The notes beneath the pieces were generated by a model. It was not told the origin of the DNA. It worked only from the letters and a program-made list of their open reading frames with translations, and ran no database searches. This document shows positions 29,878-30,959 of a DNA stretch of 64,000 bases, one piece after another. The translations under genes were made by a program, and so were the position numbers. The stretch covers positions 496,001-560,000 of the forward strand of contig NZ_MRAV01000014.1 in assembly GCF_002752355.1 (NCBI RefSeq). Reading direction: 5' to 3'. The first letter of the stretch is position 1, and every line of letters starts with the position of its first letter. This DNA is from Leucobacter sp. OLIS6 (lineage in GTDB: Bacteria > Actinomycetota > Actinomycetes > Actinomycetales > Microbacteriaceae).

Positions 29878-30771
29878 TCAGGCAAGCCCGATCAGCGCGA
29901 TCCCGGCGACCACCACGCCGGCCGCGCCGATGCGCAGCACCGCGCGGTCCTGCTTGAACCGCCAGACGCTGTAGAGACTGACCAGGATCACGCTCACCTC
30001 CCGCATCGGGGCGATGAGCGCGATCGGTGCGATCTTCGTCGCGGTGAGCACGAGGATGTACGACAGCGGAGAGAGCACCCCGAACGCCAGCAGGCGGCCC
30101 CACTGGGTCCGGATCACCGAACCGAGGGACGGCCTCTCGCGTCGGCCGAGCAGCAGCATCACGCTGAAGCCGAGCACCTCGGTCACGGTGAAACCGACGA
30201 AGTAGGCGACGGCGGGCAGCCCGGCCCGGTTCATCGAGATCGCATCCCACACGGTGTAGCCCGCGATCGCCACACCCGTGAGCACGCCCCAGAAGATCTC
30301 GGGCGGGATCCCGCGCCGCCGAGTCGGGCCGCTGCGCAGCGCGGTTCGCGGACGGCCGATCATCCCGACCCCGATCACTCCGAGCACCACCACCAGCGCA
30401 CCGACGAGCGCGAGCGGGCCGGGACGCTCCCCCAGCACGAGCAGCGCGAAGACGCCCGTCAGCACGGGGCCGCTGCCTCGGGCGGTCGCGTACACGGTCG
30501 TCAGGTCCCCCGCCGCGTATCCGCGCTGCAGCGCGAGCATGTAGCCGATATGGAGCACCCCCGATACGGCTGCGCCGACGAGGAAGGCCCAGGGATCCGC
30601 GCCCTGCAGGCCGCCCGTGAACGGGATGACGAACGCCCAGAGACCGCTCGCGATGACCGCGCCCCACCAGAGGAACGGGAGGCCGGAGCCGCTGGATCCG
30701 TGCGAGACGATGTTCCAGGCGGCGTGGCACACGGCAGCCGAGAGGACGAGAGCGATGGCGAAAGCGGACAC
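29878..30771 (-). CDS. EamA/DMT-family transporter
   Basis: 297-aa inner-membrane transporter with about ten transmembrane helices in two EamA halves (about 1-130 and 150-297; for example FAIALVLSAAVCHAAWNIVS and PLALVGALVVVLGVIGVGMIG). DMT proteins export metabolites or drugs, and the substrate here is unknown. The GTG start was chosen because GGAGG lies 8 nt upstream. Directly ahead lies a ykkC-class riboswitch whose downstream sequence can pair with the region around that ribosome binding site, so the gene is probably ligand-regulated. It sits between parC and parE, which are often neighbours in related genomes. Confidence 0.87.
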   Translation of the reverse strand: MSAFAIALVLSAAVCHAAWNIVSHGSSGSGLPFLWWGAVIASGLWAFVIPFTGGLQGADPWAFLVGAAVSGVLHIGYMLALQRGYAAGDLTTVYATARGSGPVLTGVFALLVLGERPGPLALVGALVVVLGVIGVGMIGRPRTALRSGPTRRRGIPPEIFWGVLTGVAIAGYTVWDAISMNRAGLPAVAYFVGFTVTEVLGFSVMLLLGRRERPSLGSVIRTQWGRLLAFGVLSPLSYILVLTATKIAPIALIAPMREVSVILVSLYSVWRFKQDRAVLRIGAAGVVVAGIALIGLA

Positions 30772-30773
30772 GT

Positions 30774-30817
30774 AGGAACCCTCCACCCGGCGCGCTGATG
30801 CGTCGGGTTCGGTTCCT
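30774..30817 (-). promoter_or_regulatory. Possible expression platform sequestering the EamA ribosome binding site
   Basis: On the minus-strand RNA, AGGAACC (30817-30811) can pair with GGUUCCU (30780-30774). The latter lies between the GGAGG (30784-30780) and the GTG start. The same AGGAACC could instead pair with the aptamer's own GGUUCC (about 30903-30898). This suggests a translational switch, inferred from complementarity alone. Confidence 0.4.
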
Positions 30818-30913
30818 CCAGGCTTTTGTCCGTTCAGATGACGCCGGGATGCGGATCCCGGCGTGGCACCGCTCGGACCAGGCAGGCGCATGGCCCCGGA
30901 ACCCTAGGTGCTA
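30812..30913 (-). ncRNA. ykkC-class riboswitch (guanidine-I or related ykkC subtype) in the EamA leader
   Basis: On the minus strand the leader contains the ykkC consensus blocks in order. CUAGGGUUCCG is at 30907-30897, CUGGUCCGAG at 30881-30872, and GGACAAAAGCCUGGAGG ends the aptamer from 30831. Between the second and third blocks is a perfect 10-bp hairpin (30841-30850 with 30855-30864), the variable P2-type stem. ykkC RNAs sense guanidine (subtype 1) or ppGpp, PRPP or nucleoside diphosphates (subtype 2). I cannot tell which from the sequence by eye. The aptamer starts about 140 nt upstream of the EamA transporter start. Confidence 0.8.
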
Positions 30914-30959
30914 TCGGGTTCAGCCTAGCAGCGGGCTCGCGTCCGGGCCCGCCCCCGGA

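Follow-up and report, generated by a model that had tools for sequence, protein, structure and literature searches.

A ykkC subtype 2d riboswitch candidate with a predicted translational platform precedes an EamA-type transporter gene in Leucobacter

Within the ykkC superfamily a single base sorts guanidine gene contexts from the others: subtypes 2a and 2b have a pyrimidine (C49) in place of A46 of the guanidine-I aptamer, as stated in the accessible part of PMC6031431. According to the same part of that source, the guanidine, PRPP and ppGpp classes behave as ON switches, and the ligands are contacted at their pyrophosphate end or ribose by G6, G104 and G105. Subtype 2d is associated with EamA (phn_DUF6) and TauE genes in the available portions of PMC7266159 and PMC5912903; the latter describes it as resembling guanidine-I most, while the former, a 2020 review, lists it as the ykkC class with a ligand yet to be determined. 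No later answer on the 2d ligand was found in the literature covered, which included the accessible parts of PMC10043782 and PMC12186494 and a minority of subscription papers. The connection between ykkC RNAs and EamA genes, which had been put forward as new when the present DNA was read from its letters alone, is thus already in print for 2d in the sections seen of PMC7266159 and PMC5912903.

We analysed a 64,000-nt stretch of DNA from Leucobacter sp. OLIS6 (the window), in which an EamA gene lies between its neighbours in the arrangement parC(+)/EamA(-)/parE(-), a setting that had been read correctly before. We propose, with a probability of roughly 0.86, that translation of this single EamA-type (DMT) transporter gene is controlled by a ykkC subtype 2d riboswitch transcribed from a promoter of its own. 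By sequence comparison, the RNA appears to be a further member of a known ligand-orphan ykkC class, to which mechanistic detail can be added. The features of the locus are collected in Table 1.

Table 1. Features of the putative riboswitch and its gene; positions are those of the window.
Feature	Position	Strand	Basis or remark
Extended -10-like box TGCTAGGCT; TAnnnT at 30927-30922	30922..30930	-	predicted transcription start ~30915
Putative ykkC subtype 2d aptamer (P1, P1a, P1b, P2, P3)	30811..30918	-	RF00442 match, R1, covariation
P1 5' arm GCACC	30907..30911	-	pairs with 30870-30866; 3/5 pairs changed on both sides
CCGAGC, last base C30871 at the position of guanidine-I A46 / PRPP C49	30871..30876	-	RF00442 alignment
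P1 3' arm GGTGC	30866..30870	-	covariation count, letters checked
P2 5' arm CGCCGGGA	30856..30863	-	6/8 P2 pairs changed on both sides
P2 3' arm TCCCGGCG	30842..30849	-	covariation count, letters checked
TCATC after P2, 74-78 of PRPP numbering (our alignment); guanidine-I has CACGG	30837..30841	-	
GGAACC, aptamer 3' end and predicted first platform strand	30811..30816	-	6-bp match in 103/115 loci
Shine-Dalgarno GGAGGG, 7 bases before GTG	30779..30784	-	
GGTTCC, predicted second platform strand; overlaps last two G of Shine-Dalgarno	30775..30780	-	
EamA/DMT transporter gene, 297 aa, GTG start 30771-30769, related to phn_DUF6 (TIGR03340)	29878..30771	-	PF00892, E 2.4e-13

A cmscan search of 701 bases gave a match to RF00442 (Guanidine-I) on the minus strand at 30918-30813, covering model positions 1-107 with 55 bits and an E value of 5.3e-9. 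The curated gathering score of this family is 63 bits, and the aptamer is absent from a standard Rfam scan because it falls below it; at gathering thresholds the scan of the window returned RNase P and four tRNAs only. RF00442 was significant by E value, though under its gathering score, and no other Rfam family gave a significant match. The ykkC blocks follow each other on the minus strand as had been described, namely CCUAGGGUUCCG, CUGGUCCGAG, an 8-bp perfect hairpin, GGACAAAAGCC and GGAGG. The features of the superfamily were found as P1/P1a/P1b, P2, and a P3 with CUAGGG, CUGGUCCGAG and GGAnAAAAGCC. The span proposed by the sequence-only reading (30774-30913) takes in nearly the whole aptamer but stops short of its start, at 30918-30915, and of the -10-like box. 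Our own covariance model R1 scored the window aptamer at 126.4 bits, the window being one of its training sequences; R1 was scored on 88 loci for which a match was known or anticipated, with near-identical strains omitted.

Comparison within the genus showed conservation of both the RNA and its position. Nineteen Leucobacter sequences, that of the window among them, were aligned: 12 of 24 base pairs show changes in both partners, and paired cells make up 95.6%, vs. a mean of 84.2% after shuffling and at most 45.2% with slid partners; 48 of the 113 aligned window positions were unchanged in all sequences. With RF00442 at E up to 1, matches were obtained in 21 of 54 Leucobacter genomes, none of which reached the gathering score. 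The aptamer lay directly before the same EamA gene in 19 of the 54, and the two remaining weak matches (L020, L021), located away from the gene, were discarded. A second model of our own, R2, recovered the same 19 genomes. The EamA gene itself (E 1e-40 or better) was detected in 27 of the 54 genomes, and the aptamer occurred in 19 of the 27 genomes with the gene vs. none of the 27 without it (Fisher p 1.2e-8, kinship uncorrected), eight genomes thus having the gene without the aptamer. The distance from the RF00442 match to the start codon behind it was 37-43 bases in all 19 loci (41 in the window). Judged by the RF00442 E value, the covariation and this pairing with the gene, the minus-strand element is a ykkC-class riboswitch candidate rather than a chance resemblance, as the sequence-only reading had supposed.

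Of 80 loci encoding EamA relatives in a named genome collection, 71 have the aptamer immediately ahead of the gene according to R1; inspection of the leaders of the other nine revealed no whole aptamer. In three Leucobacter loci (L023, L024, L046) the EamA gene stands directly after parE and the aptamer is absent, and in a Microbacterium locus (L074) it is missing except for an apparent remnant of the 5' half. These four are perhaps cases of natural loss of control. An RF00442 scan at the family level, run like that of the genus with strict filters that lose some weak matches, gave the gathering score in none of 299 genomes. R1 matches in the phylum (15/396 genomes) and the order (9/248) are a mixture of 2d and guanidine-I RNAs, unusable as 2d counts.

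As RF00442 was the sole Rfam family matched significantly, we considered whether the window RNA is a divergent but ordinary guanidine-I (subtype 1) riboswitch, with EamA exporting guanidinium. The whole P1-P3 architecture is the same (aligned model 1 to 107), SMR exporters, from the same superfamily as EamA, are controlled by guanidine riboswitches in the accessible parts of PMC7266159 and PMC5912903, and the likeness of 2d to guanidine-I in PMC5912903 points the same way. Yet the window has C in place of A46, lacks CACGG, carries GGAGGA instead of GGGAGA, scores below the gathering threshold, and is followed by other genes. The marker is C throughout the 88 sequences of a model-based rather than pattern-based alignment, to which the window belongs, and the gathering score was reached in none of the genus and family genomes scanned. 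We regard a guanidine-I identity as very improbable.

The scores of the two models also speak against it. R2 was run on 198 genomes of a single genus that belongs to the same class as Leucobacter. The 58 matches, found in 55 of these genomes, fall into a high group of 24 (97.2-108.7 bits) and a low group of 34 (40.6-61.6 bits), with none between. The 24 high matches precede TauE (16) or EamA (8), one per genome. Seven of the 34 low matches were read (L195-L200 and L137); six of these, L195-L200, have GAGAG together with CACGG and lie before the same symporter by eye, assigned to SSF by a Pfam run on L195. Three genomes contain one high and one low match together, their low ones being outside the set read. 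With RF00442 the order was reversed: four guanidine-I loci reached 77.8-87.6 bits, while three actinobacterial 2d loci scored 54.1-61.9 bits. The pair of models separates actinobacterial 2d members from true guanidine-I RNAs. It does not separate alphaproteobacterial or third-group relatives (see below) from guanidine-I, as R2 gives them 39-58 bits: alphaproteobacterial L156 scored 48.2 bits with RF00442 and 49.5 with R2, and third-group L139 and L201 scored 45.7-46.9 bits with RF00442 and 49.8-57.5 with R2. In 393 genomes of the class, 14 were matched at E 1e-9 or better. The new class-level loci L226-L228 have EamA or TauE downstream, and intermediate scores were found for L227 (81.5 bits, TauE) and L228 (70.4 bits, EamA by eye).

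A separate guanidine switch in the same genome likewise argues against a guanidine-I identity. We detected one guanidine-III (RF01763) match in the window's genome, at 43 bits vs. a cut-off of 36 (L222, 1501-1569), directly before two SMR genes whose best NCBIfam model is SugE, below cut-off for both. Guanidine-III is, like the window RNA, found in the leader of a DMT-superfamily exporter but belongs to another Rfam family and has another fold. As the match exceeds its cut-off, it is likely the guanidine sensor of this genome, and guanidine sensing and export are therefore probably served elsewhere than by the window RNA. At another locus (L137, 1729-1794) a guanidine-III match of 68.8 bits and a guanidine-I riboswitch occupy opposite strands, some 120 bases apart. 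Judged by its sequence, the window RNA is not a guanidine sensor.

The assignment to subtype 2d fits the marker and the genes. The marker base is the pyrimidine of subtype 2, a rule that the accessible part of PMC6031431 states for 2a and 2b, and an EamA/phn_DUF6-type gene follows, with a TIGR03340 match under cut-off; the assignment is judged from marker, genes, and secondary descriptions rather than from the published 2d consensus. In the accessible descriptions (PMC7266159, PMC5912903), the 2d candidate likewise has the common ykkC core, a pyrimidine at the marker, and EamA (phn_DUF6) or TauE downstream; the covarying translational platform, the spacing of the -10-like box, and the reading of the pocket are added here. 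Guanidine, ppGpp, PRPP, and nucleoside diphosphates, the ligands that had been listed for this element, are those of subtypes 1 and 2a-2c, whereas marker and genes point to 2d.

For the transporter, the best NCBIfam model was TIGR03340 (phn_DUF6), with E 5.2e-31 and 108 bits vs. a cut-off of 288. Its AlphaFold model (pLDDT 91.9) resembles DMT folds (triose-phosphate translocator, LicB, 5i20), which does not tell the substrate. Residues H16, N20, H74, R98, D176, R257, and E258 are invariant in 17 sequences from two phyla, a pattern that would suit an anionic or zwitterionic substrate but says no more than that. For wider comparison we used 115 non-redundant loci, window included, with an aptamer end GGANNN; the underlying pattern demanded the marker C and missed L178 and L193, 2d loci found by the models, so that the 115 are not all and the marker was counted in the 88 model-aligned sequences instead. 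Downstream of these loci are 100 EamA and 15 TauE genes. The window's genome has four TauE-family matches at three places and an R2 match only at the window RNA. The surroundings of 16 loci, L158 and L159 included, were compared over some 5.5 kb to either side, and no partner gene for the transporter was found; the clusters common to more than three of them were the transporter (TauE 10, EamA 6) and an SDR-like enzyme cluster (7 loci). A rhodanese upstream of TauE was dropped as a sulfur clue, being present at two loci only (L159, L217).

To read the pocket, we aligned short stretches to the PRPP aptamer, whose end numbering was fixed by primers in PMC6031431 (accessible part). The 88 sequences keep G48, C49, C75, A76, C78 (87/88), and GGAGGA with A101 (87/88), which by our alignment are shared with the PRPP (2b) and ppGpp (2a) aptamers as far as PMC6031431 was accessible; position 77 is U. 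The pocket of the window RNA reads nearer to 2a/2b here, in contrast to the guanidine-I likeness given in the accessible part of PMC5912903. These shared bases and the common 3' end favour the idea that the RNA belongs to a solved anion subtype, i.e., a ppGpp (2a), PRPP (2b), or NDP (2c) switch. However, G6, G104, and G105 are not conserved in the 88 sequences, no P0 was seen in the window, the window is one base shorter at G95-G97, and the downstream genes of the 115 loci encode transporters, not the amino-acid, purine, or NUDIX/HAD functions given in the available part of PMC7266159. With neither the amino-acid or purine genes nor the three G bases of 2a/2b found, membership in 2a-2c is scarcely credible, and we retain the 2d assignment.

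Under the 2d assignment, retention of the phosphate-contacting bases of the PRPP/ppGpp aptamers suggests a small anion rather than guanidinium as the ligand. Subtype 2d may possibly be a switch for a phosphonate, sulfonate, or sulfite-like compound, keeping a one-phosphate half-site (G48, C49, C78) and having lost the pyrophosphate half (G6, G104, G105), with EamA and TauE as alternative exporters of that compound; this prediction is tentative, and we rate it low because the alignment covers short stretches. The presence of two unrelated transporters, TauE and EamA, behind the same RNA in one genus (16 and 8 loci) points to a shared compound and so narrows the candidates. Pfam names TauE proteins sulfite exporters, phn_DUF6 is named after phosphonate use, and two invariant arginines occur in the EamA relatives together with D176 and E258; as clues to the ligand, these names and residues are suggestive only.

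The 3' tail of the aptamer has a counterpart close to the start codon. A perfect 6-bp match to the tail (G-U allowed) was present downstream in the leader in 103 of the 115 loci, with seven different tails, vs. a mean of 52 and a maximum of 67 when tails were permuted among loci (1000 trials) and a mean of 6 and a maximum of 15 when the regions were shuffled. Without G-U pairs the match held in only 43/115 loci, and related species inflate these counts. The poorly fitting tails comprise 11 loci with five of six bases and L017 with four. Relative to the start codon that our script selected, the best match is 0-6 bases upstream in 107 loci and elsewhere in eight. The combinations include AACC/GGUU, ACCC/GGGU, AUCC/GGAU, AGCC/GGCU, ACCU/AGGU, and AUCU/AGGU, and such a number of different matching combinations speaks for selection on the pairing despite the counts inflated by kinship. 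In the window the platform helix is predicted to be 7 bp long (AGGAACC/GGUUCCU), with an inner hairpin, at -25.5 kcal/mol (z -1.4), and it recurs in the predicted minimum-free-energy fold of the entire leader (z -2.7). In that fold CGGACA of the P3 5' side (30832-30827) also pairs with UGUCCG (30772-30765), touching the GTG start.

From the covarying match between the aptamer tail and the bases adjacent to the start codon, we infer a translational ON switch, the direction known for the guanidine, PRPP, and ppGpp classes. Without ligand, GGAACC (30816-30811) would pair with GGUUCC (30780-30775) by the start codon and mask part of the Shine-Dalgarno sequence (OFF). Ligand binding would fold P3 and the 3'-end part of the aptamer and retain the GGAACC strand there, which would free the ribosome site and allow the exporter to be made (ON). 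As the first platform strand lies within the conserved GGAGGA end, the ligand-stabilised aptamer and the masked start should exclude each other. The ligand is probably also the substrate of the EamA transporter, which we suppose to export rather than import it. The sequence-only reading had already seen a downstream complementarity that could mask the ribosome site. The AGGAACC/GGUUCCU match is real, with six bases covarying across genera, but the helix would cover no more than the two Gs of the Shine-Dalgarno sequence nearest the GTG; the GGAGG of the third block is the aptamer's own 3' end, and its last bases supply the masking strand. Least probable of all is a conserved leader without a small ligand, such as a thermosensor or a protein-bound leader tuning translation, since ykkC aptamers that bind ligands have the same invariant P1a/P3 core and the 19 sequences agree fully at 48 of 113 positions, even though the class is ligand-orphan and the OFF hairpin alone is predicted to be stable, if only at z -1.4 vs. 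shuffles.

Upstream of the aptamer, TAnnnT was found at one of three adjacent offsets in all 115 loci (68, 46, and 1, respectively) vs. 0.21 loci on average and 2 at most for three random neighbouring offsets at the same loci. The offsets (-12 to -10) were noted after looking and then counted against this control of their own; a TAnnnT within -24 to -12 occurred at 1/115 loci. This spacing would place the start of the transcript at the conserved GAYAG, with the box as a putative promoter.

Relatives were also seen beyond the main set. A third ykkC group in another class of the phylum (L139 at 1501-1611, L141, L201, L202, and L203) has the C marker, C at position 77, and a different P3 strand (GCACCUCA..GGACARAAGCCUCGAG; also GCCUCGAG). 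A different EamA family follows in L139 (Pfam, TIGR00950-like) and, by eye, in L141 and L201; by sequence the group may be a further variant, perhaps of a further ligand class. Among 16 records of plasmid relatives of EamA, R2 found the RNA before the gene in L154, L155, L156, L165, L167, L168, L169, and L171, and gave no match at the MurR/RpiR-linked loci L149-L152 or at L153, L157, L166, and L170. The alphaproteobacterial plasmid RNAs (L154, 4839-4953; L155, 4805-4916; L156, 4810-4917) have the same kind of RNA-transporter pairing outside Actinobacteria; in their three leaders the C marker, a possible P0 (UCGAC/GUCGA), and a similar pairing of the 3' tail with the Shine-Dalgarno sequence were recognised by eye.

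The Rfam cut-off leaves the Leucobacter members of this class unlisted (0/54 genomes above it). With more than 100 members of 2d, a mapped platform, and a single-gene context suited to reporters, the search for the ligand of this class becomes directly testable.
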